Source of the DNA: Candidatus Yanofskyibacteriota bacterium
Lineage (GTDB): Bacteria; Patescibacteriota; Minisyncoccia; 2-02-FULL-40-12; GWA2-44-9
DNA: 41,300 nucleotides
NCBI GenBank assembly: GCA_023245235.1
Contig: JAHFKT010000006.1
Span: forward strand, 1 to 41,300
Reading direction: 5' to 3'
Under the pieces are notes generated by a model, which searched no databases, had not been told where the DNA came from, and was given only the letters and a program-made list of their open reading frames with translations. Of this stretch, positions 6,024 to 41,114 are shown piece after piece. A program made the position numbers and the translations under genes. Position 1 is the stretch's first letter; every line of letters starts with the position of its first letter.

Positions 6024-6968
6024 ATGAGATCTTTCCCCGGCAAATTTTTCGTCAATATCCTCGCTATTCTTCTGATAGCCGGTTTCGGATACTACTACCG
6101 GGATAACGCAACGCGCTTGGTACGGGAGCTTCTTAACCGGGTTCAACCCTGCCGGTGGCCGATAACATACTCGATCGTAGGTCTTGACCCGCAGTTCGGC
6201 CTGACGCAGTCGCAGTTGCTCAGCGATATCAAGAAAGCCGAAGCAGTATGGGAGGCTCCGATCGGCAGACAGCTATTTGAATACTTTCCGACCGGAGATC
6301 TGAAGATCAGTCTCGTCTACGATAACCGACAGAAGGCCACCGATGCATTACGACCCCTGGGCATTGTTATCAACGATGACAGGGCCACCTATGACGCGGT
6401 ATTAGCTAAATATAAATCACTCTCCGCCTCCTATAATACGGAAAAAGCGAACATTACAACCTTGGTTGAACGGTACAATACCGACAAAAGCGCATATGAT
6501 CAGGCCGTAAGTTATTGGAATAAGCGCGGCGGAGCGCCCAAGACAGAATATAATGCGCTCGAACAGCAGAGGTCGGACCTCAATGATCAGGCCGCCGCCA
6601 TCAATCGGGCGAATAACTCGCTCAATCAGTTGGCTGATACGGTAAATTCAACCGCGATCGTTCTCAACAGATTGATTTCCGAGCTTAACCTTCAGGTGAA
6701 AACATACAATACGGTCGGCGCATCAAACGGCAAGGAGTTCACCGAGGGCGAATATGTAAGTAACACAAGCGGTACGGCAATTAATATTTTCCAGTTTGAT
6801 GATGAAGACAAGCTGGTGCGGGTCCTGGCCCATGAGTTCGGCCACGCATTGGGGCTCGTACACATTGATAATCCCAAGGCCGTCATGTATTACCTGAACG
6901 AAGGCGTTAATGGAACGTTGACAACTGATGACCTCGCGGCCTTGAAAAAGGTATGCGGTATCGAGTAG
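6024..6968 (+). CDS. Membrane-anchored matrixin/zincin-like metalloprotease
   Basis: HEFGHALGLVH = HExxHxxGxxH zinc motif followed by AVMYY Met-turn; N-terminal TM; long predicted helical segment. Confidence 0.8.
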   Translation: MRSFPGKFFVNILAILLIAGFGYYYRDNATRLVRELLNRVQPCRWPITYSIVGLDPQFGLTQSQLLSDIKKAEAVWEAPIGRQLFEYFPTGDLKISLVYDNRQKATDALRPLGIVINDDRATYDAVLAKYKSLSASYNTEKANITTLVERYNTDKSAYDQAVSYWNKRGGAPKTEYNALEQQRSDLNDQAAAINRANNSLNQLADTVNSTAIVLNRLISELNLQVKTYNTVGASNGKEFTEGEYVSNTSGTAINIFQFDDEDKLVRVLAHEFGHALGLVHIDNPKAVMYYLNEGVNGTLTTDDLAALKKVCGIE

Positions 6969-6992: not shown

Positions 6993-7493
6993 ATGAAAAA
7001 AATCATCATAGCCTTGGTAGTAGTGGCGGTTGTCAGTCTCGGAGCATATTACCTGGTCTTCGTCAGCGGTTCCGGCGGAACTCCTTCGTATACAAATTCT
7101 CCGGAGCCGACCAACTCCGAAACAATGACCCCCATGCCCACGGTACCGCCGGAGACACCGACCCCATCATCGACCGCAGAACCGACGGCGACGCCGAAAG
7201 CTTCTGCCTCGAGTACTCCTAAGCCCGCCCCGTCAACATCAGGTAGTACGGTTACTATAAAAGATTTTGCTTTCAGCCCGACTCCGCTGACCGTCAAAAG
7301 AGGCACCAAGGTGACATGGGTCAATAATGATAATACTTCTCATACCGTTTCATCCGATTCGGACACCACTCTCGAGTCACCCGTTCTTTCTACCGGAGGG
7401 ACGTTCAGCTTCACCTTTACTACCCCGGGCACTTTCAGCTATCACTGCAGTTTCCATTCGGATATGAAGGGCACTATTGTCGTTACCAACTGA
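6993..7493 (+). CDS. Cupredoxin (plastocyanin-like), membrane-anchored
   Basis: TM anchor, Pro/Thr/Ser-rich linker, DNTSHTV … FSYHCSFHSDMKG (His…Cys-His-Met type-1 Cu ligand pattern). Confidence 0.87.
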   Translation: MKKIIIALVVVAVVSLGAYYLVFVSGSGGTPSYTNSPEPTNSETMTPMPTVPPETPTPSSTAEPTATPKASASSTPKPAPSTSGSTVTIKDFAFSPTPLTVKRGTKVTWVNNDNTSHTVSSDSDTTLESPVLSTGGTFSFTFTTPGTFSYHCSFHSDMKGTIVVTN

Positions 7494-11711: not shown

Positions 11712-13289
11712 ATGTCTAAGAGGGTGTTGACCTATTTTATTGGGGTCATCGTGATGAGCGGTGTGGCTGTTCTGTCGTACCGCTCCGGCTACCGCGAGGT
11801 CGTGCAGGACGCGAACAACGATCCGGCCGCGTACGGCTATATTGCCGAAAGTCCGGGCGAGGACTGGCTTACGTACCACGGGAGCTATGGTGCCCAGCGG
11901 AACAGTCCGCTGACCCAGATCAATGAGGCGAATCTTGCTTCGGTCGGTCCGCTGTGGACCTACCACGTTGAAGGTGCGCTAAATCTTCGCGCCACGCCGC
12001 TGGTCCATCATGGCCGGATGTATTTCGTAAGCAATAACGATGCGTACGCGCTTGACGCCGCTACCGGCAAACCGGTCTGGATATGGCGTGATCTGGAACA
12101 TTCCGGGGAAACTACGCTCAATCGCGGCATGGCTATTCTCAACCAGCGACTCTTTTTTGCGACCGGCGACTGCCGCCTGGTGGCCCTTGACCTGGATGGC
12201 CGGCTGCTTTGGTCCAAGAAATACGTTCCCGCCGACCAGGGATACTACTGCACCGTAGCACCGCTAGCCCTGAAGGATCGTATTGTGACCGGAGTTTCGG
12301 GCGGCGGGCGCACGGGCGCACGCGGCTTCGTCGCTTCGTTCTCGCCAGTTGATGGTAAAGAGCTCTGGCGCTTCTGGACGGTTCCGGACCGCGGCAAGCC
12401 CGGTTCTGAAACTTGGGGGGACGCTGACCTGGAACATAGCGGAGCTTCTACTTGGTATACCGGCAGTTATGATCGGGAACTGAACCAGCTCTACTGGCCG
12501 GTCGGAAATCCGTGGCCGAGCTTTGAGGGCGAAAAGCGTCCCGGAGATAATCTTTATTCCGGCAGTGTGGTGTCTCTGAACCCGGACACCGGAGCATTGA
12601 ATTGGTATTTCCAGTTCACGCCTCATGATGAACATGATTGGGATGCGGCCGTAGCGCCGGTACTCGTTGATGCTCAATGGCAGGGGAAACCCCGCAAACT
12701 GCTCATGGAAGCAAACCGGAACGGATTTTTCTACGTTCTTGACCGGACCAACGGCAAGTTCCTGCTCGGCAAGCCCTATGCTCAGAAGATGAACTGGGCA
12801 AGCGGTCTGGATGCTAATGGCCGGCCTGAGCGCCTCAGCACAAAACAGGATCCGAGAGGAACCTGTCCATCGCCCGGAGCCACGAATTGGATGTCGCCGA
12901 CCTACAACGCCGATGCGGGACTGTTCTATGTCGTCACGCTGGAGCAATGCGACAGCGCCCGCGGGCATTACTACCTGCGCGCCATTGATCCCTGGTTCGG
13001 AAAGGTTGCATGGGAGTATCCGATGCAGGGTCCCGCCAACATGGCCGCCGGGGCGCTGTCTACTGCCGCACATTTGGTCATATTCGGCAGCGACTCCGGT
13101 GATCTGGTCGCCCTGAACGCCAAGAACGGCAAAGAACTCTGGCATGCCCCGTCGGGCGGTTCCATATTTGCCTCCCCGATGACCTATGCGGTCAACGGCA
13201 AGCAGTTCATCGCTATTGCAGCGGGTTCGAACATCTTGAGTTTCGGACTTCGCGAGCCACAGGGTCCGACAGTGTCGGATAAGAAGTAA
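11712..13289 (+). CDS. PQQ-dependent (quinoprotein) alcohol/methanol dehydrogenase-like beta-propeller, membrane-anchored or exported
   Basis: N-terminal TM; WLTYHGSYGAQRNSPLTQIN; repeated W-motifs (YALDAATGKPVW, LVALDLDGRLLW, VSLNPDTGALNW, VALNAKNGKELW); RPGDNLYS; TPHDEHDWDAA; no CxxCH haem motif. Confidence 0.88.
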   Translation: MSKRVLTYFIGVIVMSGVAVLSYRSGYREVVQDANNDPAAYGYIAESPGEDWLTYHGSYGAQRNSPLTQINEANLASVGPLWTYHVEGALNLRATPLVHHGRMYFVSNNDAYALDAATGKPVWIWRDLEHSGETTLNRGMAILNQRLFFATGDCRLVALDLDGRLLWSKKYVPADQGYYCTVAPLALKDRIVTGVSGGGRTGARGFVASFSPVDGKELWRFWTVPDRGKPGSETWGDADLEHSGASTWYTGSYDRELNQLYWPVGNPWPSFEGEKRPGDNLYSGSVVSLNPDTGALNWYFQFTPHDEHDWDAAVAPVLVDAQWQGKPRKLLMEANRNGFFYVLDRTNGKFLLGKPYAQKMNWASGLDANGRPERLSTKQDPRGTCPSPGATNWMSPTYNADAGLFYVVTLEQCDSARGHYYLRAIDPWFGKVAWEYPMQGPANMAAGALSTAAHLVIFGSDSGDLVALNAKNGKELWHAPSGGSIFASPMTYAVNGKQFIAIAAGSNILSFGLREPQGPTVSDKK

Positions 13290-13312
13290 GCGGGTCTTTT
13301 GACCCGCTTTTG
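13288..13312 (+). terminator. Intrinsic terminator
   Basis: AGCGGGTC-TTTT-GACCCGCT-TTTGT. Confidence 0.75.
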
Positions 13313-13365
13313 TATTGACAGGTTTATCGGGGAGTATAATAATGTCGGTACGTACCTTATAACCC

Positions 13366-13704
13366 ATGCGCAGCATCGTTGCGATCCTGTTTTCAGCAGC
13401 TCTCATTGGCGCGGCATACCAGATCGGTGTGTCTCCGCGTCTTGCAGCTCAAAGCAAGAGCCACGCCCAGGTTCAGGCTCAAGTCCAAACTCCTGCCGCA
13501 GCCGCGGCTCAGGAGAAAGACAAGACTATTTGCGACAACTCCGGTAAAACCAAGGGCGCGAACGCGAAATGTTCCTGCAACCGTCCCTGTGACCCGACCA
13601 CCAAGAAGCCGCAGCGCGACCTGCGCGACGGCAAGCCTCACTGCGACAACGACTGCAAGGAAGATCTGTGCCATTGTCCGACCCAGTGCGATAAGGGCAC
13701 CTAG
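13366..13704 (+). CDS. Secreted Cys-rich protein
   Basis: Signal peptide, low-complexity Q/V/A linker, then CDNSGKTKGANAKCSCNRPCDPTTKKPQRDLRDGKPHCDNDCKEDLCHCPTQCDKGT. Confidence 0.7.
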   Translation: MRSIVAILFSAALIGAAYQIGVSPRLAAQSKSHAQVQAQVQTPAAAAAQEKDKTICDNSGKTKGANAKCSCNRPCDPTTKKPQRDLRDGKPHCDNDCKEDLCHCPTQCDKGT

Positions 13705-13708
13705 AACG

Positions 13709-13741
13709 AACGGGGCCCCTCCGATGAGGGGTCTTTTTTTT
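13709..13741 (+). terminator. Intrinsic terminator
   Basis: GGGGCCCCTC-CGAT-GAGGGGTC-TTTTTTTT. Confidence 0.85.
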
Positions 13742-13802
13742 GACCTCATTCTTGAATTCGTGAACTACCCGTGATACGTTCAGGGTACTGTTTTTTGAAA
13801 TC

Positions 13803-14630
13803 ATGAGGCAAATAGTACTGATGTGCCTTGCGTTGCTTGTTATTTCATGCGGCGGACCGGTTGGCGACAACTCGACGCATCGGGACACATACGCTCAACC
13901 GACCATTCTGAACGAGGCGGTAATCATGCAGGAACGCAATGACGCGCCGCATGCGATGGCTTCATCGTCGCAGCTCTATCAAAAGGGAGTTCTTGTTTCG
14001 GCAAAGCACATTACTGACCGTGAGGACGATAATACCTTCAAGGTGTTTTTTAACGGAAGGGCGTACCGCGGAACGTTCATGAAGACCCCGCCTTTGAGCG
14101 ATCTCGTCTTGGTTCAGATCGAAGGGCTGGACCCGGCAACCACACCCGAACCCTACACGCTCGGTCCGGCAGCCCAGGTCGGCGATCGTGTATTCGTGCG
14201 GGGCATACACCCTCATCCGCCGAATCTCCAAAAAGAAAGAACGATAGTACCCATCTTCAGCGGGTACTACGGCCTTAAAGGACGGAAAGATGAATTTGTC
14301 TTTGATAATCTTCCGGCCCGCGTGGTCAATACCAATGTCGTCGTTGATATGGGCAACATCAAGGGAGCTGAACGATGGCTTGAGGGCACTCAGAATGTCT
14401 ACACCGAACTGCGGACCGACGATGACCATCTGTTCTCGTTTGCCGGACTTTCCGGAGGGCCGATCCTCAACGAGAGGGGCCAGATCGTCGGTGTTGTGGC
14501 GACCGAACAGCCCGACTTTCGGCTGGAAAGTCCGAACTCTCCTTTTCTTAAGCAGGAATTCCACAAGATCAATATCGTTCCGGTCAGCGAGCTTCGGGCC
14601 CTGCTGGCTACTCTGCCGCCGAGCCGATAA
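13803..14630 (+). CDS. Trypsin-like serine protease-fold lipoprotein
   Basis: Lipobox LVISC; VLVSAKHI (His), LSDLVLVQI (Asp), GLSGGPILNERGQIVGVV (Ser). Confidence 0.75.
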   Translation: MRQIVLMCLALLVISCGGPVGDNSTHRDTYAQPTILNEAVIMQERNDAPHAMASSSQLYQKGVLVSAKHITDREDDNTFKVFFNGRAYRGTFMKTPPLSDLVLVQIEGLDPATTPEPYTLGPAAQVGDRVFVRGIHPHPPNLQKERTIVPIFSGYYGLKGRKDEFVFDNLPARVVNTNVVVDMGNIKGAERWLEGTQNVYTELRTDDDHLFSFAGLSGGPILNERGQIVGVVATEQPDFRLESPNSPFLKQEFHKINIVPVSELRALLATLPPSR

Positions 14631-14633
14631 TGA

Positions 14634-14657
14634 TGCCCGTCCTCCGGACGGGCTTTT
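14634..14657 (+). terminator. Intrinsic terminator
   Basis: GCCCGTCCTCCGGACGGGC-TTTTT. Confidence 0.85.
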
Positions 14658-14660
14658 TCA

Positions 14661-14689
14661 TTGACGGATAATCATTTTTTCACTATTGT
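14661..14689 (+). promoter_or_regulatory. Sigma70-type promoter
   Basis: TTGACG-N17-TATTGT. Confidence 0.5.
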
Positions 14690-14710
14690 TTGCGCAAGCA
14701 CATTACCAAT

Positions 14711-15817
14711 ATGAAATGGAACGAACTTCCTGACATTCCGAGCCAACAGGCGTGGGATGTGATTGGGCGCGTACTCGGCGAAACCACCAAGTGGCTCCTC
14801 GGACTCGATGAGCCGGCACGGATCCTCATTCAGGGACTCTTTACCGTCATTCCGTATACGGACAAGCTCGGACGGATCAAATCATTGGGCCAGCCTCACG
14901 GTATGTTCATCGGCGGCACCGGCGTCGGCAAGACTGACCTGGTCGAGTCGATGTCCATGACCGTCAAAGCCCGCTTTCAGAGGATCCAGGGCAACCCGGA
15001 ACTTCTGCCGAGCGATATCGTCATCAGCGAGGCGTTCGATTATGAATCCGGGAATCCCGTCATTGTGGCGGTCCCGGGTCCGATCTTCGCCCATGTTCTT
15101 CTGTTCGATGAGGGCAACCGCGCTCCCGGCGTGACCAAGTCGGCCATTCTGGAGGCGGCCGAAGAGCGTTCGGTCACATTGCCGCGGATCTATCCGGGCT
15201 TAGCCAAACGCAAGATCATCCCGGTCTATCCGCTTTCAGAAGATCTGGATGATATCGACGGCCTGCGGTTCTCAATGATGCTGGTGACTCAGAATATTTT
15301 CGGCGAGGAAGAGGGCACCTATGCCAATCCTGTCGCCGAACTTGACCGTATCACCTTCACCATCCCGCTCCGGGATCCCGATAATGAAGAAGATGAAATG
15401 GCCATCAATGCCGAGAACGTGGTCGGAAAGACGGTCCAAGAAGTGACCGACCTGGTCGAAGTTCTGACTGTGGCCAAGCATATCTATAGCAGTGTCGGGT
15501 TTTCGCCGCAGGCGAAGATCTACCGGGCCCGCTTGCTGCGCAATACCAGGCCGCACCGTGTCCAGGGTCTGATCGCCGGGGACGTCAAGAAGTATGTTCA
15601 CACGGGCGCATCGCCGCGCGTGAACTTCCACCTTGAGGCTATGGCCCGCTCGGCCGCATTCTTTGACGGCAGCGAGGTGGTAACGCCCGACCACGTGAAG
15701 TCGGCGGCCCGATTGGTCATTCCGCACCGTTTGGTCCTCCGACCGGGGGTGCAGCGGAAGATCTCCAAGCAGGAGTTCTTCGAGAAGGTCATCGAAGCGA
15801 CCGACCTGCCCAAGTAG
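14711..15817 (+). CDS. MoxR-family AAA+ ATPase (MxaR-like by position)
   Basis: Walker A GGTGVGKTDLVE; Walker B HVLLFDEGNRAPGVTKSAILEAAEERSVTL. Confidence 0.9.
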   Translation: MKWNELPDIPSQQAWDVIGRVLGETTKWLLGLDEPARILIQGLFTVIPYTDKLGRIKSLGQPHGMFIGGTGVGKTDLVESMSMTVKARFQRIQGNPELLPSDIVISEAFDYESGNPVIVAVPGPIFAHVLLFDEGNRAPGVTKSAILEAAEERSVTLPRIYPGLAKRKIIPVYPLSEDLDDIDGLRFSMMLVTQNIFGEEEGTYANPVAELDRITFTIPLRDPDNEEDEMAINAENVVGKTVQEVTDLVEVLTVAKHIYSSVGFSPQAKIYRARLLRNTRPHRVQGLIAGDVKKYVHTGASPRVNFHLEAMARSAAFFDGSEVVTPDHVKSAARLVIPHRLVLRPGVQRKISKQEFFEKVIEATDLPK

Positions 15818-15819
15818 CC

Positions 15820-16725
15820 ATGACGTTCCAGGATATCTCTGACCGGTTCGAAGAGATCAAAGAAGGATTGCCGGTCTCAAGGACCGGCAATAGATTTTTC
15901 GGCGAACACAAGAGTACCCGGAGAGGCATCGGCTATCATTTTATGGAGATCACGAAATGGCGGCCGGGTGAACCGTTCAAGGGCATCAGATGGCGCCAGG
16001 CAATTTTGAGCAACTTCCGCGAGATCAGCGTGGTCCGCCGGATGGAACAGAAAAAAGTGCCGACCTGTCTGGTGGCGAATATCTCGCCATCAATGCTATT
16101 CCAGGTACGGGATGATGCCAACAAGGGCAGGCTCCTGATCGACCTGATCGGCGCTATCGGATTCACCAGCAGCTACTTTCATGACCCGGTCTCATTCATC
16201 GGCTACTCCGATCGCATCGAAGCATCGGTTGAACCGGGACGGGGTACCGGCCATATCATCCGTATCGGCCAGGAGCTGTACGACCGGCTCGAACTGGAAC
16301 AGCGTTATCCGGAACCCAAACCGGCCGACTGCAATGAAGCCCTGCGATACGTCGAAGCACACCTGAAGGGACACCATACGGTTGTTCTGGTCTCGGACTT
16401 TGTCGAGGCCATCAACAATGTCGGAGCGCTTGATTGGGAACTGCTTGGCGAACTGGCCATGCGGCATACCGTCATCGCACTGGTTCTGGCTGACCCCGAT
16501 GAATTTGACTGGACAGGCCTTGGCGGCGTGGCGCTCGTACGGAGGCCTCAGACCGGAGCTACCGACCTGGTCAAGGTCAAAGGTGCCCGGAATATCAGAG
16601 CCCGTCTGCTTGCCGAACAGGAACAACTGGTGGAACGCTTCAGGGAGTCGAACATCTATGCAGCCCGACTGACATACGGCGACCATATTGACCGACTGAC
16701 CGACTTTTTTGCCGAAGGCAAATAA
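15820..16725 (+). CDS. DUF58 protein (MxaS-like by position)
   Basis: GIGYHFMEITKWRPGEPFKGIRWRQAILSNFREISVVRRMEQKK = DUF58 core; starts right after the MoxR stop. Confidence 0.88.
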   Translation: MTFQDISDRFEEIKEGLPVSRTGNRFFGEHKSTRRGIGYHFMEITKWRPGEPFKGIRWRQAILSNFREISVVRRMEQKKVPTCLVANISPSMLFQVRDDANKGRLLIDLIGAIGFTSSYFHDPVSFIGYSDRIEASVEPGRGTGHIIRIGQELYDRLELEQRYPEPKPADCNEALRYVEAHLKGHHTVVLVSDFVEAINNVGALDWELLGELAMRHTVIALVLADPDEFDWTGLGGVALVRRPQTGATDLVKVKGARNIRARLLAEQEQLVERFRESNIYAARLTYGDHIDRLTDFFAEGK

Positions 16726-16732
16726 GTCCTCA

Positions 16733-16762
16733 GAATAATCGAGGTTTGACCTCGATTTTTTG
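16733..16762 (+). terminator. Intrinsic terminator
   Basis: AATCGAGG-TTTGA-CCTCGATT-TTTTG. Confidence 0.75.
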
Positions 16763-16775
16763 TTTGACCGCATTA

Positions 16776-16816
16776 TTGACAGGCCTACAAGTTTTCTGTA
16801 CCTTTCGGTACAGAAA
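16776..16816 (+). promoter_or_regulatory. Promoter overlapped by a perfect 10-bp-arm palindrome
   Basis: TTGACA-N17-TACCTT; TTTCTGTACC-TTTC-GGTACAGAAA at 16793-16816. Confidence 0.55.
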
Positions 16817-16827
16817 CGATCTTTAAC

Positions 16828-17850
16828 ATGACACAGGCAAGGAACGCCGTGCTGCGCGTCTTCTTCATGTTGTTTGTGCTGTCCGTCACCTCGTCAGTAT
16901 CCGCGCAAGATGACTTCAAGCGCGGGCTGATCGTTGACGAGCCGCAACTGTCGCGCTCAACATTCACCAATTGGGATGACATCCGGATCACGTATCCGGT
17001 GCGTTACCTGGACGGCTACGAGCCGCAATACGACAAAGGTCCGTCGGCCGCAAGCTTTGCGCCATTTGAACTGCTTGGCGAGCCTGAATATCAGAAGACC
17101 CACAAGGTCGGCCGTGAGAACTATGAAGAATGGACCTATCATCTGCGCTATGCGGGTAAGGAAAAAGAAGAGATGGAAGTTCCTGAACAGACCTTCTACT
17201 ATCTGAAGCTCCAGGCGAGCAAGGATAAGAAGGATTTGGAACTCCGCTCGTTCAAATCCCCCGTGTTCAAGTTGAAGTATGTCAGCGTTCTTACGAAAGA
17301 GGCCGACGACATCAAGGATCCGATCGACTTGGGTTCATACCAGTCCCGGTCTTACCGATTGATCGCGCTATCGATTCTGGGATTTCTGTGCACCGCCTCG
17401 GCGGTCATTGTTCTCGGATTCAGGAAGCCAATCGTTGCGGTCGCTGAACATCAGGGCCGGCTGGAACGGGTACGTTCCAGGGGCGCCAGCAGGAAAGAGT
17501 TCCTCGCCGCTATCAGTTCTGGAACTCCGCTCAATGTGGCCCGGTTTCATCAAGCTTTACGTCGCCTGATCCAGGCATACAGTCCCGATGTGCTCAACTC
17601 TGACACCGCACGGGATATCGTACAAAAGCTGAAAGTCAAACCGGCCGACAGCGAAGTATTGATCCTCCAGTGTTTGGCCGGCTCACTACTGGAGTATGAG
17701 GACAGCGAGACCGGACGATCTCAACAGAAGATCGATCTTGTTACGGAACACCGCGACTTGAAAGCGCTGGTCGATAAACTCGGCTGGCGTCAACAGCTTC
17801 AGGCGGAATTGCATCGCCTCTATACTGACTTGAGGCGCAAACGCTCATGA
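16828..17850 (+). CDS. Membrane protein, MxaA-like by position and architecture
   Basis: Signal peptide, extracytoplasmic beta-rich region, one TM (~aa 180-200), cytoplasmic C-terminal domain; overlaps the next gene (ATGA). Confidence 0.7.
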   Translation: MTQARNAVLRVFFMLFVLSVTSSVSAQDDFKRGLIVDEPQLSRSTFTNWDDIRITYPVRYLDGYEPQYDKGPSAASFAPFELLGEPEYQKTHKVGRENYEEWTYHLRYAGKEKEEMEVPEQTFYYLKLQASKDKKDLELRSFKSPVFKLKYVSVLTKEADDIKDPIDLGSYQSRSYRLIALSILGFLCTASAVIVLGFRKPIVAVAEHQGRLERVRSRGASRKEFLAAISSGTPLNVARFHQALRRLIQAYSPDVLNSDTARDIVQKLKVKPADSEVLILQCLAGSLLEYEDSETGRSQQKIDLVTEHRDLKALVDKLGWRQQLQAELHRLYTDLRRKRS

Positions 17851-18992
17851 GCACCTGGCAAACGATCAGAGAGCTCGTCATGAGCCAGCTGGTAAGTCTT
17901 ATCAATACCGACTGGCACTTTGTTCATTTCAGGCATACCCGTTTCGTGCTGACCCTTGCCGTAGTATTCGCTGTCGGTGGCCTGCTTCTGCAATTCATCC
18001 GAAGGCGGAAGGGCAGGGTCTTCTATAGCGGGTCAGGATTCGCATTAGAACGGTCAGAGAAGGCGGGACTGCTCTACCGCTGCCTCAGGGCGCTTCCACT
18101 GGTTCTGGTGTTGAGCGCCCTTTTGTTTCATGGCCTGGTTGCCGCCGACCCGTACATCGTAGTCGGCGATAATTCGGAAGTGGTCCGGTCGCGCCTGGTC
18201 ATGTATCTGGTCGACGCTTCCACGTCGATGGCATGGCGGTTCAGGAATTATCCCCAATCGCGGGCGGAGATCGTTCAGGACTTCCTGCTTAATCTTCTTG
18301 AGAAACGAAGACCAAAGCATGACTCGGTCGCTATCGTGCGTTTTGAGACCACCGCCGATGTTATCAGCGATTTCACGGATAGCGTCGACAGTCAGCGGTA
18401 CTTTCTTTACAGCATGCCGATGGTGGTCACTTTCCCGAACGCCAAAAGCGATTTTCCGGGCAGTTGGGTGCTCACTCACGGCGTACTGGAAGCGGGATAC
18501 GGCCATGGCAGCACCCGTCTTGATCGGGGACTGGAAGCCTCCTATAAACATTTCGATGCCCGGGCCGATCAACGGATCAAGGACCGCAGTATCGTCATCG
18601 TCACTGACGGTGCGGCGGATACAGATCCGGAGAATGAGTTCAAGGAACTTCAAAAACGCCATATTATTCCGTACTTAGTGTTCATCGAACCGGACCTGGA
18701 GGTCGAACACAAGTATTCCGGAGACGCGATGTTCCAGGTCAAAAAGGCCTCCGCCGAAAAGGTCCAGCAGCTGGTCCGCCGGTCCGGAGGACAGGTGTTT
18801 CAGGCGGGGGATAAGCAATCCCTGCAGGCTATCAGCGATAAGCTTGATGCACTGCAGCCGTCCATCACGGAGACCAAGCATTACTCCAACGAGATCCCGG
18901 TCTATCAGCGCTTTGAGATCGCCTCACTGTTCTGCCTGATACTGGCCGGACTGATGAAGCTCTTGCTCATCTCATTCCAGCGGGTTGCATAG
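17847..18992 (+). CDS. VWA-domain membrane protein (MxaC-like by position)
   Basis: MIDAS DASTS in LVMYLVDASTSM; SIVIVTDGAADTDP; TM at both ends. Confidence 0.85.
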   Translation: MSTWQTIRELVMSQLVSLINTDWHFVHFRHTRFVLTLAVVFAVGGLLLQFIRRRKGRVFYSGSGFALERSEKAGLLYRCLRALPLVLVLSALLFHGLVAADPYIVVGDNSEVVRSRLVMYLVDASTSMAWRFRNYPQSRAEIVQDFLLNLLEKRRPKHDSVAIVRFETTADVISDFTDSVDSQRYFLYSMPMVVTFPNAKSDFPGSWVLTHGVLEAGYGHGSTRLDRGLEASYKHFDARADQRIKDRSIVIVTDGAADTDPENEFKELQKRHIIPYLVFIEPDLEVEHKYSGDAMFQVKKASAEKVQQLVRRSGGQVFQAGDKQSLQAISDKLDALQPSITETKHYSNEIPVYQRFEIASLFCLILAGLMKLLLISFQRVA

Positions 18993-19014
18993 CCCCGACA
19001 GCGGTCGGGGCTAT
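18993..19014 (+). terminator. Terminator-like hairpin
   Basis: GCCCCGAC-AGCG-GTCGGGGC, weak T tract. Confidence 0.5.
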
Positions 19015-19018
19015 TATA

Positions 19019-19047
19019 TTGACAGGACGATACTTTATCGGTAGTTT
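19019..19047 (+). promoter_or_regulatory. Sigma70-type promoter
   Basis: TTGACA-N17-TAGTTT. Confidence 0.5.
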
Positions 19048-19070
19048 TTATGTAAGTTTTTTCACAATCA

Positions 19071-19823
19071 ATGAATATCAGGTCAAGACTAAGCATCAAG
19101 AGATTGATCCTCGTAAGCGTTTCTTTGGCAGTGCTGTTCTTGGGATGGGCCCTCCCGTTCCAGGCCGGCATGTATTGGTGGCACGTGAATGCGTACAGTA
19201 AGTACGTTTCCCGTTCCAATCAGGTCGCCGCTGAACATGAACTGGCGACATTGCAGAAGCTCTATGAAACTTCGCAAAAATATCATCTTGACGGCCTGGC
19301 TAACCGGTATGTCTTCGATGACTTCACCCGGTTCGATGCCGCCTATAACTACATGACCGGCGACTTCGATAAGGTCCATGCGAAGTTACTGAACGGCCAG
19401 GATTTTCAGAGCTGCTACATGCGCGGCAACGCGAAGTGGCGCATGGCCCAAGACCAATTTCGCCAGGGCTTGAACCTTCAGGACAAGGAACAGCGGATGA
19501 AGCTGATGAAGCGCGGAGATGAACTTGCCCAAAGCACGAAAGATGACTATCTCTGCGCGCTCAAGGAAGACCGCGACCATACCTTGCCGCCGAGCTGGAA
19601 CTACGATATCACCACCGATGACGGGGCTCGTATGCGGGCATTGATGCCCAAACCGGGCAAGATCATCATCCTCCTCGGTGACGAGAAAGATGACGGTGAC
19701 GGTACCGAGGGTCTGAAGGGTCCCCGGATCCATCCCAATGGCTCCGACAGTAAAGACGTGGACAAGAAAGGCGGCGGTGACTCCAAGGGCAGAGGACTTC
19801 CCGGCATTCGCCGGAAAAGCTGA
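19071..19823 (+). CDS. Single-TM protein (MxaK-like by position)
   Basis: N-terminal TM, helical region (CYMRGNAKWRMAQDQFRQGLNLQDKEQRM), charged Gly/Asp/Lys-rich tail; TGATG overlap with the next gene. Confidence 0.7.
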   Translation: MNIRSRLSIKRLILVSVSLAVLFLGWALPFQAGMYWWHVNAYSKYVSRSNQVAAEHELATLQKLYETSQKYHLDGLANRYVFDDFTRFDAAYNYMTGDFDKVHAKLLNGQDFQSCYMRGNAKWRMAQDQFRQGLNLQDKEQRMKLMKRGDELAQSTKDDYLCALKEDRDHTLPPSWNYDITTDDGARMRALMPKPGKIIILLGDEKDDGDGTEGLKGPRIHPNGSDSKDVDKKGGGDSKGRGLPGIRRKS

Positions 19824-20845
19824 TGGGGTTCGTCTCCGATCTGTTTCGGCAGCTTACGTTTGCCGAACCGTCATATTTCGTTCTTTGGCCGACCGTAGTG
19901 ATGATCGGTCTGGCGGTCGCATCGGCGCTTGTAGCCAAGCGGCTGTTGCGGCCTAAGGCTTCCCGACATTCCCGATACCGGATATTTCATAAAGAACTGC
20001 CCTGGCTGGCGGCGATCATTATCGCCGCCGGTCAGATCGTGATTCTTGCCCGGCCTCAATTGCCTGCCGGATTCAAGATCGCCAAGGCGCCCGTGGATAT
20101 CATTGTTGCCTGGGATGACTCGCCGTCAATGACAGCAAAAGATGTTCGGCCGAATCGGCTGGAGGTCGCAAAAAGCATCATCTTTTCGATGATTTCGAGC
20201 GATTCAGTTCAAACCGGTGACCGGATGATGCTGATCCTGTTCGGACGCGACGCCCGTTCCCGGATGCCGCTCTCGAGCGATAAAAAAGATTTTGTGACCA
20301 AGGTCGCCGAGGTCGTGGTGCCCGGGATCTATTATGACGATGCCTCGACCGATACCAGCATTGTCACGGTCCTGTCATTCATTCCGCAGGTCCTTGATGC
20401 GCAGGATAAGTTTGAGCATAACAGCTCAGCATCCCGTCGTATCGTGATCCTTCTTTCCGATGGCGATGATGATGCAAAGGTTCCGGTTCGGATGAACCTT
20501 GCCCTGCAGGAACTGCACAGTCGTCATATTCCGGTCTATTGCATCGGGGTCGGGACTGTTACCGGTGCGCAGGTTAAGTTCAAGGTAGCCGTTGATAAAC
20601 AGATACTGGAGTTTGAGGATCGGACACAGCTTCGTCCGGAAGTTCTGGTGCCGATCGCCCAGGTCACCGGAGGCAGATCGATGATGACCGAGTCTGATAA
20701 GCCGGCCGTCCAGAGTTTTCTGGCCAATGCCATCGAATCGAACCGGCCGGTCATGCCGCATTTGGTTCCCACCGGCTCGAAAGATTCCTGGTGGGAGTTC
20801 TCGGTGGCACTCCTGGTGCTATCATTCCTGGCACTTGTTCTGTAA
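19823..20845 (+). CDS. VWA-domain membrane protein (MxaL-like by position)
   Basis: DDSPSM MIDAS; RRIVILLSDGDDDAKVP; TM segments at both ends. Confidence 0.85.
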   Translation: MGFVSDLFRQLTFAEPSYFVLWPTVVMIGLAVASALVAKRLLRPKASRHSRYRIFHKELPWLAAIIIAAGQIVILARPQLPAGFKIAKAPVDIIVAWDDSPSMTAKDVRPNRLEVAKSIIFSMISSDSVQTGDRMMLILFGRDARSRMPLSSDKKDFVTKVAEVVVPGIYYDDASTDTSIVTVLSFIPQVLDAQDKFEHNSSASRRIVILLSDGDDDAKVPVRMNLALQELHSRHIPVYCIGVGTVTGAQVKFKVAVDKQILEFEDRTQLRPEVLVPIAQVTGGRSMMTESDKPAVQSFLANAIESNRPVMPHLVPTGSKDSWWEFSVALLVLSFLALVL

Positions 20846-20848
20846 TAC

Positions 20849-20873
20849 GCCGACACCATGTCGGCTTTTTGTT
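20849..20873 (+). terminator. Intrinsic terminator
   Basis: GCCGACACCATGTCGGC-TTTTTG. Confidence 0.8.
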
Positions 20874-26351: not shown

Positions 26352-26825
26352 ATGAAGAAACTTGTTCTTATCGGAGTATTGGTGATTGTCGCAGTCGGGG
26401 CATTTGTCATGTTCCGCGGTAGTGCTCCGGAATACACATCGAATACAACTCCCGCCCCGACCGAAAGTCCCGCTGTGAGCCCGGGAAGTGCTTCCGATAC
26501 AATAAAGCCATCGGCAAGTCCGTCATCTAAAGTCGTAACCGTGACCTACTCCGACAACGGCTATACGCCCTCTTCAGTCACGATCCCGGTCGGCGGTACG
26601 GTTACTTGGAAGAATGAAAGCAGCCAGCTCATGTGGACAGCTTCCAATCCGCACCCCGTCCATAATGGATATCCGGAACCCGGCGGATGCATCAGCAGTA
26701 CGTTCGATGCATGCATGGGCTATGGTCCGGGCACTTCGTGGTCATTCACATTCGATAAAATCGGCACTTGGGGCTACCATAACCATCTCCGGGCGAGGAA
26801 CCAGGGCGTTGTCATCGTCCAGTAA
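26352..26825 (+). CDS. Cupredoxin-like protein lacking the canonical Cys ligand
   Basis: Signal/TM, Pro/Ser linker, VTIPVGGTVTWKNES…GTWGYHNHLRARNQGVVIV. Confidence 0.75.
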   Translation: MKKLVLIGVLVIVAVGAFVMFRGSAPEYTSNTTPAPTESPAVSPGSASDTIKPSASPSSKVVTVTYSDNGYTPSSVTIPVGGTVTWKNESSQLMWTASNPHPVHNGYPEPGGCISSTFDACMGYGPGTSWSFTFDKIGTWGYHNHLRARNQGVVIVQ

Positions 26826-39210: not shown

Positions 39211-39477
39211 GGTCTAAGTCAATAATACTTCCTCACCGCGTTCTCTGGTATTTTGGAATAATGCGAGGCACGACGAGGAGGCATGCCGGTTGGCCTGTCG
39301 ACGAGGAGTAACGAAGTATTATTTTAAAATAACGAGAACCCTTTGGGATATGCCAAATTTCAATAATCCATCATCATTTGTCCTCAACATACTAGTAAGT
39401 ATGCCTCGTCCTCATTCTTTGACTTATTGGAAATTTGGCTATATCGCGATTGGAAAGTATTATTGACTTAGACCCTA
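39208..39477. repeat. Structured ~270-nt element, copy B (inverted termini, multi-stem interior)
   Basis: AGGGTCTAAGTCAATAATACTTCC…GGAAAGTATTATTGACTTAGACCCT; same internal motif order as copy A; flanked by TA on both sides. Confidence 0.8.
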
Positions 39478-41114
39478 TGCTTTCAGACGAGATAAAAAAT
39501 ATCATCAGCGGCGATGTGACATCCGCTGAACCGGACCTGGCTCGCTACAGCCGTGACGCGAGCGTTTTTGTCGTTAAGCCGCAGGTCGTCGTGTATCCGA
39601 AAGGGTCCGAGGATGTTAAAAAGCTTGTTTCCTGGGTTACCGGCCAAAAATCGGGCCGGCCGGAACTGTCGCTGACCGCCCGCTCGGCCGGCACTGACAT
39701 GTCGGGAGGTCCGCTCAATGATTCGGTCATCCTCGATTTTACGAAATATTTTAACCATATTCTTGAGGTCGGTGACGGCTACGCCGTCACCGAACCCGGC
39801 GTCTATTACCGGGACTTTGAAAAGGCCACGCTGGCCAAGGGTTTCCTTCTGCCGTCATATCCGGCCTCTCGGGACATATGCGCGATGGGCGGCATCGTAT
39901 CCAATAATTCCGGCGGCGAAAAATCCCTCAGGTACGGCAAGACGGAAAAATTCGTGAAAGAGTTGAGTGTCGTTCTCTCTGACGGGAATGAATACATTTT
40001 TCATGCGTTGACACTCCAACAGCTTGAAGAGAAGAAATCCCGACAGACGTTCGAGGGCCAGGTATACCGGCAGATGCTTGAGCTGCTCGAAAATAATTAC
40101 GATGCCATTCAAGCGGCTAAACCCGATGTTTCCAAGAACTCAGCCGGATATTATCTCTGGAACGTATGGGACCGGCAGACATTTGACCTGACGAAGTTAT
40201 TGGTCGGTTCGCAGGGTACATTGGGCTTGGTGACAAAGATCAAGCTCGATCTGATACGGCCGAAAAAATATTCCAAACTGCTCGTCATATTCCTGAATGA
40301 CTTGGGGCCCCTTGGCGACCTGGTCACTGCGGTCATGAAATATAAACCGGAAAGTTTCGAGTCATATGATGACCAGACGCTGAAACTGGCCATCAGGTTC
40401 TTTCCGGATCTCCTCAAGAAGATGAAAGGCAATGCGATCTCATTATTCTTCAAATTCATACCGGAAGCATGGATGATGCTGACCGGCGGTTTGCCGAAGC
40501 TCGTGCTCATCGCCGAATTCACCGGAGATACGGAGGCGGACATTGACCGCATTCTGAATGAAGCCCAGACCGCGGTACGTTCGCAATTCCGGGCCAAGAC
40601 CCACATCACCCATACCGCCGCTGAAGCCGAAAAATACTGGGTCATCCGCCGTGAAAGCTTTTCTCTGCTTCGGAAACATGTCGGCACCAAGCATACGGCG
40701 CCATTCATCGACGATGTCATCGTCCACGTTGATCAGCTTCCGCAATTTCTGCCGAAGCTCAATGAGCTGGTGGGACAGTATAAGGGCCTGACATACACTA
40801 TTGCCGGGCATGCGGGCGATGCCAATTTCCATATTATCCCGCTTATGGACTTTCATAACAAAGCGAACCGGGAAGCTATTCCGGAACTCTCCGAAAAGGT
40901 TTACGATTTAGTCATCGGTCTTCATGGTTCGATCACCGCCGAACATAATGACGGGCTTATCAGGACGCCCTATCTTGAGAAGATGTACGGAGCGCCGATC
41001 TGCGCCCTGTTCAAGAAGACCAAGCAGATATTCGATCCGCAAGATATCTTTAATCCGCGCAAGAAGGTCGGCGGCGACATGCAGTATGCGATGTCCCATA
41101 TTTCCCAAGATTAA
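39477..41114 (+). CDS. FAD-binding oxidoreductase (GlcD/D-lactate dehydrogenase family)
   Basis: VVYPKGSEDVKKLVSWV; TARSAGTDMSGGPL; CAMGGIVSNNSGGEKSLRYGKTEKFV; TYTIAGHAGDANFHIIPL; start ATG at 39477 or in-element TTG at 39435. Confidence 0.87.
   Translation: MLSDEIKNIISGDVTSAEPDLARYSRDASVFVVKPQVVVYPKGSEDVKKLVSWVTGQKSGRPELSLTARSAGTDMSGGPLNDSVILDFTKYFNHILEVGDGYAVTEPGVYYRDFEKATLAKGFLLPSYPASRDICAMGGIVSNNSGGEKSLRYGKTEKFVKELSVVLSDGNEYIFHALTLQQLEEKKSRQTFEGQVYRQMLELLENNYDAIQAAKPDVSKNSAGYYLWNVWDRQTFDLTKLLVGSQGTLGLVTKIKLDLIRPKKYSKLLVIFLNDLGPLGDLVTAVMKYKPESFESYDDQTLKLAIRFFPDLLKKMKGNAISLFFKFIPEAWMMLTGGLPKLVLIAEFTGDTEADIDRILNEAQTAVRSQFRAKTHITHTAAEAEKYWVIRRESFSLLRKHVGTKHTAPFIDDVIVHVDQLPQFLPKLNELVGQYKGLTYTIAGHAGDANFHIIPLMDFHNKANREAIPELSEKVYDLVIGLHGSITAEHNDGLIRTPYLEKMYGAPICALFKKTKQIFDPQDIFNPRKKVGGDMQYAMSHISQD

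Follow-up and report, generated by a model that had tools for sequence, protein, structure and literature searches.

A MoxR/VWA gene cluster with mxaRSACKL gene order and a quinoprotein-like neighbour in Paceibacteria: evidence for a Bat-side affiliation

In the mxa loci of methylotrophs, the genes mxaRSACKL follow the order MoxR-DUF58-A-VWA-K-VWA beside a quinoprotein gene, where VWA denotes a von Willebrand factor A domain. Bat operons likewise combine MoxR and DUF58 with a beta-sandwich third gene and two VWA proteins of three transmembrane (TM) segments each. NorQ/NorD and other MoxR–VWA pairs also consist of a MoxR ATPase and a VWA partner, which are thought to remodel a client protein (PMC13036017). 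The window analysed here, i.e., the whole stretch of 41,300 nucleotides from contig JAHFKT010000006.1, contains at 11712-20845 a gene block encoding, in this order, a quinoprotein-like beta-propeller (QP), a small cysteine-rich protein (CRP), a trypsin-like lipoprotein, MoxR, DUF58, an A protein, VWA1, a K protein and VWA2. A first-pass annotation had read this block as a reduced periplasmic alcohol-oxidation system, with a pyrroloquinoline quinone (PQQ) dehydrogenase matured by an mxaRSACKL-like cluster. That reading is borne out only in part: gene order and linkage agree with it, but metal-site residues of the dehydrogenase are lost and the cluster is not Mxa. Whether the block instead encodes a membrane assembly machine of the MoxR/VWA kind, Bat-like but in a subfamily of its own, with QP and CRP as an optional client module, is in our judgement evenly balanced.

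The cluster and its affiliation

For comparison, 20 true mxaFJGIRSACKL loci were reached via PF02315 in Hyphomicrobiales (searching plasmids for mxa references had yielded loci of the PedH-like kind and no mxa), and Acidobacteriota and Alphaproteobacteria DUF58 loci served as further references. Profile–profile scores (hhalign) favoured Bat over Mxa for MoxR (400 vs. 249), DUF58 (231 vs. 119), A (66 vs. 50), VWA1 (170 vs. 129) and VWA2 (~200 vs. 82), making Bat the closest system for five of the six proteins; K alone favoured Mxa (MxaK 41 vs. Bat 26). MxaK is also the best match of K (hhalign 74%), and A, which resembles both the Bat third gene and MxaA, matches MxaA weakly (85%). The AlphaFold2 (AF2) model of A is of low confidence (pLDDT 52), with an Ig-like sandwich as its sole readable feature. 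In the trees, the window protein forms one clade with those of Paceibacteria and of the acidobacterial locus L222 for both MoxR (support 100/97) and DUF58 (100/100), with Mxa separate, and Mxa by descent was rejected for these two proteins; for K it is unproven. The DUF58 clade is sister to Bat (95/90), and the MoxR clade sits among Bat and other non-Mxa groups, where the branching order is not settled. Because the profile scores (K excepted) and trees place the cluster proteins away from Mxa, the cluster is, judged by its sequences, a Bat-side subfamily sharing the Mxa gene order. Thus the R-S-A-C-K-L order named by the first-pass annotation is that of the 20 mxa loci, but mxa membership fails in the trees and, for every protein except K, in the profiles. 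The window MoxR nests with L222 (99/93) at 51% identity, which suggests exchange between Acidobacteriota and Paceibacteria.

The features of the block, all on the + strand, are as follows:

11712..13289, +, QP, quinoprotein-like beta-propeller, 525 aa, one N-terminal hydrophobic segment (Pfam/NCBIfam, residue table, AF2, Foldseek)
13288..13309, +, terminator-like hairpin 3' of QP (consensus scan only)
13315..13343, +, promoter-like site TTGACA-17-AATAAT upstream of CRP (consensus scan only)
13366..13704, +, CRP, small secreted Cys-rich protein, 112 aa (alignment; no Pfam family above cut-off)
13712..13735, +, terminator-like hairpin 3' of CRP (consensus scan only)
13803..14630, +, trypsin-like serine protease, lipobox Cys16, presumed triad H69/D100/S217 (PF13365 5e-10; alignment)
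14635..14653, +, terminator-like hairpin 3' of the protease (consensus scan only)
14711..15817, +, MoxR-type AAA+ ATPase, Walker A GGTGVGKT (PF07726; tree; open reading frame (ORF) reaches TTG 14690)
15820..16725, +, DUF58 protein (PF01882 4e-17; tree)
16737..16757, +, terminator-like hairpin 3' of DUF58 (consensus scan only)
16828..17850, +, A protein: signal peptide, Ig-like beta-sandwich, TM 178-196, helical cytosolic part (hhalign, AF2 at low confidence, TM scan)
17847..18992, +, VWA1: 2 TM, predicted extracytoplasmic VWA with metal-ion-dependent adhesion site (MIDAS) DASTS, 1 TM (Pfam, motif, TM scan)
19071..19823, +, K protein: one TM and predicted extracytoplasmic domain, weakly similar to MxaK (hhalign, TM scan)
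19823..20845, +, VWA2: 2 TM, predicted extracytoplasmic VWA (MIDAS DDSPS), 1 TM (Pfam, motif, TM scan)
20849..20865, +, terminator-like hairpin at the cluster end (consensus scan only)

Pfam recognizes in the window proteins a PQQ propeller (PF01011, 2e-66), AAA_3, DUF58 and two VWA domains. All ORFs claimed in the first-pass annotation are present at their coordinates, and both VWA proteins carry the DxSxS motif that it reported (DASTS and DDSPS). However, MoxR does not directly follow the dehydrogenase gene as described there: the genes of CRP (13366-13704) and of the protease (13803-14630) lie between, and both of these overlooked genes belong to the cluster. The probable start of MoxR is ATG 14711, given the -10-like hexamer whose last base is 14689 and the aligned Met at which its relatives begin. 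Terminator-like hairpins number 28, against 10.2 +/- 3.3 expected from shuffling (~3-fold), and the consensus scan places them after QP, CRP, the protease, DUF58 and VWA2. Because such hairpins lie between its genes, the stretch from QP to VWA2 probably comprises several transcription units.

The window is contig C24 of a 95% complete Paceibacteria genome of 825,704 bp (~0.83 Mb) in 42 contigs, labelled G000, of which stretches totalling 812 kb of 826 kb were analysed. Its tetranucleotide composition correlates with the rest of the bin at r 0.96-0.98 (median 0.956). Contamination or misbinning was rejected, the composition being native and the same cluster being present in relatives; the window and its host are native Paceibacteria DNA. 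The genome size and a family shared with a Ca. Yanofskybacteria metagenome-assembled genome (G017, contig JACOZW010000050.1) confirm the host of the Candidate Phyla Radiation (CPR) type proposed at first pass.

Linkage of the propeller and the cysteine-rich protein to the cluster

The MoxR/DUF58 cluster occurs in 11 of the 28 genomes of the family and QP in 4, and QP adjoins the cluster in all four: before the protease in the window genome, after VWA2 in G007 and G017, and divergently between protease and MoxR in G019. A profile search of 384 Paceibacteria genomes added one more member of the QP clade, G498, on the 3.3-kb contig C14 and again between protease and MoxR; a weak propeller match in G346 was kept out of the clade count. 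Adjacency is thereby found for 5/5 clade copies in three layouts, which disfavours chance and upholds the link that the first-pass annotation had drawn. Two results would on their face point to chance adjacency, i.e., the Bat-side position of the proteins and the occurrence of the block without the dehydrogenase. However, chance adjacency does not follow from them, because QP was never found away from the block in the Paceibacteria clade.

A profile of the K protein matched in 15/384 Paceibacteria genomes and gave three strong cases among 297 Acidobacteriota; eleven K-bearing clusters are without QP. The acidobacterial loci L222, L237 and L238 contain orthologous MoxR-DUF58-A-VWA-K-VWA clusters with no QP or other quinoprotein nearby. 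Among 80 loci around QP relatives, the cluster was present within ~10 kb only at L051, a Paceibacteria locus, and the linkage is therefore a Paceibacteria trait. In most relatives the cluster is flanked by a UvrC-like gene and groES-groEL, a location that is conserved among them (L119, L122, L124-L130, L233-L236); the window cluster has other neighbours, and so moved or arrived separately. Some clusters contain two VWA1 copies (L128:11083-13501, L129:6155-8577), and G017 has two separate clusters, on contigs C16 and C58.

CRP has eight conserved Cys, with a C-terminal C..C..C.C..C motif, and by alignment is a new family of small secreted proteins encoded beside MoxR/VWA clusters, none matching a Pfam family above its cut-off. 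Besides the window copy (13366-13704), its members lie at L119:9639-10148, L121:6953-7384, L122:5207-5536, L233:7475-7777, L234:8110-8394 and L236:7915-8211. Within the family, CRP is present in 4/4 complete clusters that carry QP and in 0/7 that do not (Fisher p = 0.003, kinship ignored). In G019, both are present on opposite sides of the cluster. Because a concatenated cluster tree places QP and CRP in both main lineages, the pair would have been jointly gained or jointly retained more than once. The protease combines a lipobox Cys with a His-Asp-Ser triad (H69, D100, S217) that is invariant in 11 aligned clusters.

Fold, pocket and redox context of the propeller

The fold of QP is that of a PQQ-type dehydrogenase, as the first-pass annotation had it, and Pfam and NCBIfam group it with quinoproteins of the methanol/ethanol type. 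The AF2 model is a mostly confident propeller (pLDDT 79, pTM 0.81), and the nearest solved structure is the lanthanide (Ln) enzyme PedH (6zcw, TM-score 0.83 in Foldseek). However, QP scores 402 bits against the TIGR03075 cut-off of 480 (NCBIfam). Among the NCBIfam models, each of the five Paceibacteria QPs scores best with TIGR04528, 'acido-empty-quinoprotein' group A, also below its cut-off of 650 (476 bits for the window copy, 303-326 for the others).

The five copies were aligned with 20 genuine MxaF in a residue table using MxaF numbering, with the pocket residues other than the metal ligands being those that we take as such from general knowledge of MxaF. The metal ligand Glu177, present in 20/20 MxaF, is Gly in the window copy (G199) and Asn in the four relatives. 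Glu55 is replaced by Arg (R93 in the window) and the vicinal Cys103-Cys104 pair is absent in 5/5, so that the claim of a working PQQ alcohol dehydrogenase, as opposed to that of the fold, is not supported. The metal ligand Asn261 is kept in the window (N266) and lost in the other four. Retained in 5/5 are Arg109, Thr159, Trp243, the catalytic Asp303, the lanthanide-type Asp305, Arg331 and Asn394; the window counterparts are R138 (R109), T181 (T159), W248 (W243), D309 (D303), D311 (D305) and R336 (R331). Five of ten pocket positions (R109, T159, W243, D303, R331) are kept in all copies, compared with 59/390 other MxaF-conserved columns (hypergeometric p = 0.009), and because of this higher retention the pocket seems to have been modified and not just to be in decay. 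The identities of the MxaF metal ligands and the Ln Asp motif follow a published description (PMC11845868).

The relatives of QP are mainly acidobacterial. In a quick tree, the five Paceibacteria copies and the Acidobacteriota loci L007 and L008 form one clade (SH-aLRT, a likelihood-ratio branch support, of 100); both acidobacterial proteins are 51-53% identical to the window QP and are without E177 and Cys-Cys. At L008 the gene comes immediately after one for a c-type cytochrome, and at L007 its neighbour is a quinoprotein that bears a cytochrome, suggesting that the ancestor of QP was redox-active. PqqC was not found in the window genome or in four QP-bearing relatives (three methylotroph genomes were positive controls), COX1 was not found in G000, G007, G017 or G019 (its positive control was detected), and the 812 kb covered of the 826-kb genome showed no ORF combining CxxCH with a signal sequence, and hence no cytochrome cL partner (~11 kb of short contigs being masked as N). 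A CPR host in which PqqC, COX1 and secreted c-type cytochromes were not found is in line with the first-pass annotation. CRP gave no PF02315 match, a genome-wide search with PF02315 (MxaI) or a MxaJ model not having been made. There is no evidence here for methylotrophy or quinoprotein respiration in CPR, and a literature search gave no match for 'empty-quinoprotein' or for PQQ with CPR/Parcubacteria.

Elsewhere in the window, a cupredoxin-like secreted protein with an apparently intact plastocyanin-type Cys/His/Met copper site is encoded at 6993-7493, 4 kb upstream of QP, and a second one without that copper-site Cys at 26352-26825. A FAD-linked oxidase of the D-lactate/glycolate oxidase type lies at 39435-41114 in this apparently non-respiring genome. 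The protein encoded at 6024-6968 is a zinc metallopeptidase of matrixin-like (M10) type, which starts with a hydrophobic segment and contains a long helical insert.

Possible function and comparison with known systems

The assembly-machine reading would assign the machine to a subfamily common to some Paceibacteria and a few Acidobacteriota. QP would be a membrane-tethered propeller derived from acidobacterial PQQ alcohol dehydrogenases, with the metal-PQQ site lost and a modified central pocket kept; repurposing as a surface protein is more likely than alcohol oxidation. The TM scan gives each VWA protein a pair of TM segments near the N-terminus, separated by a positive loop, and a third at the C-terminus. 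From this positive-inside pattern and the precedent of the Borrelia inner-membrane protein BB0173, which has the same layout and a periplasmic VWA domain (PMC5700661), the VWA domains are predicted to face outside the membrane. Cytosolic MoxR and DUF58 would be coupled by way of A, K, VWA1 and VWA2 in the membrane, so that MoxR could drive ATP-dependent remodelling of an extracytoplasmic client mediated by the VWA proteins, for which NorQD offers a MoxR/VWA precedent (PMC13036017). The MIDAS sites may grip QP and/or CRP, whose role as clients we infer from co-occurrence; the lipoprotein protease may process or trim the product, presumably a complex that binds at the cell surface and not an alcohol oxidase. 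A more specific version falls somewhat short of an even chance. In it, a CPR machine made of MoxR/VWA and a lipoprotein protease, for which our searches gave no earlier description, would mature a metal-free ex-quinoprotein together with an eight-Cys protein, turning a respiratory enzyme into a structural or ligand-binding surface part of an ultra-small, apparently non-respiring cell.

Several observations weigh against the assembly-machine reading. Since QP is missing from most clusters, the machine has to serve other clients as well; three genomes from a different family of the order carry CRP but no QP; MIDAS is incomplete in some VWA relatives; the separate predicted terminators speak against a single transcription unit; and the gene counts are not corrected for phylogeny. 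A passenger role, in which an independent Bat-like stress or envelope system has QP and CRP beside it at an insertion-prone spot, would fit the 7/11 cluster-bearing family genomes without QP, the varying position of QP and the same terminators. The adjacency in 5/5 copies over three layouts, and the finding that QP and CRP are either both present or both missing, including in G019 where the cluster lies between them, make it quite improbable.

The retained Asp303, Asp305, Arg331 and Trp243 could also mean catalysis with an unusual cofactor, and L007 and L008 are without E177 yet cytochrome-linked, so that a missing Glu need not abolish redox work. On these grounds QP might be a redox or hydrolytic enzyme using another cofactor or substrate in its altered pocket and matured by the cluster, in line with the selective retention of pocket residues (p = 0.009) and the c-type cytochromes beside its acidobacterial homologues; with further pocket residues lost in 4/5 copies and no demonstrated electron acceptor in Paceibacteria, this is rather unlikely. 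A real reduced PQQ (Ca or Ln) alcohol dehydrogenase with mxaRSACKL-like maturation could draw on Asp303 and lanthanide-type Asp305 in 5/5, Asn261 in the window copy and the R-S-A-C-K-L order. PQQ scavenging is common and azurin can take quinoprotein electrons (PMC12124388), which would leave the plastocyanin-type cupredoxin at 6993-7493 as a conceivable acceptor. However, the lost metal-ligand Glu, the E55 to R exchange and the missing Cys-Cys in 5/5, the loss of N261 in 4/5, the failure to find PqqC, COX1 or secreted CxxCH proteins, and the non-Mxa position of the cluster in the trees make such an enzyme improbable.

The locus is a MoxR/VWA system of a coherent variant type, to which a probably repurposed quinoprotein and a member of a new Cys-rich family belong, its function being predicted from sequence and gene neighbourhood. 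It shows gene order decoupled from function, with the exact mxaRSACKL order in a cluster that is not Mxa by descent, and automated annotation of its 'methanol dehydrogenase' neighbour without metal-site residues could log PQQ alcohol oxidation in CPR. If the linkage is functional, it would provide a tractable system for the targets of extracytoplasmic MoxR/VWA complexes, a question also for Bat operons, with the protease, the propeller and the Cys-rich protein as concrete candidates.

Among known systems, mxaRSACKL differs in that the window cluster has an extra protease and CRP, and a neighbouring dehydrogenase without the metal site, and in that neither MxaJ nor cytochrome cL nor MxaI was recognised within it. 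Compared with Bat, K separates the VWA genes, the lipoprotein protease, CRP and QP are added, and no clear BatD or BatE is present in the window cluster (PF13584, BatD, matches just 2/11 A proteins, E >= 0.02). With XoxF/PedH, QP shares the propeller fold, and its D309/D311 fits the Ln Asp motif, but the metal-ligand Glu and Cys-Cys are missing. TIGR04528 is the best-scoring model and the QP lineage is close to Acidobacteriota, with the Paceibacteria copies adding E55 to R and further losses. The MoxR-vWA conflict systems in the literature, some of which include a trypsin or beta-propeller component (PMC7159879), have, going by their description, an architecture unlike that of the window cluster; anti-phage defence was rejected, with PADLOC-DB giving only a weak protease-domain match. 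Unlike NorQ/NorD, the window VWA domains are membrane-anchored and predicted to be extracytoplasmic, and there is no NorB-type client.

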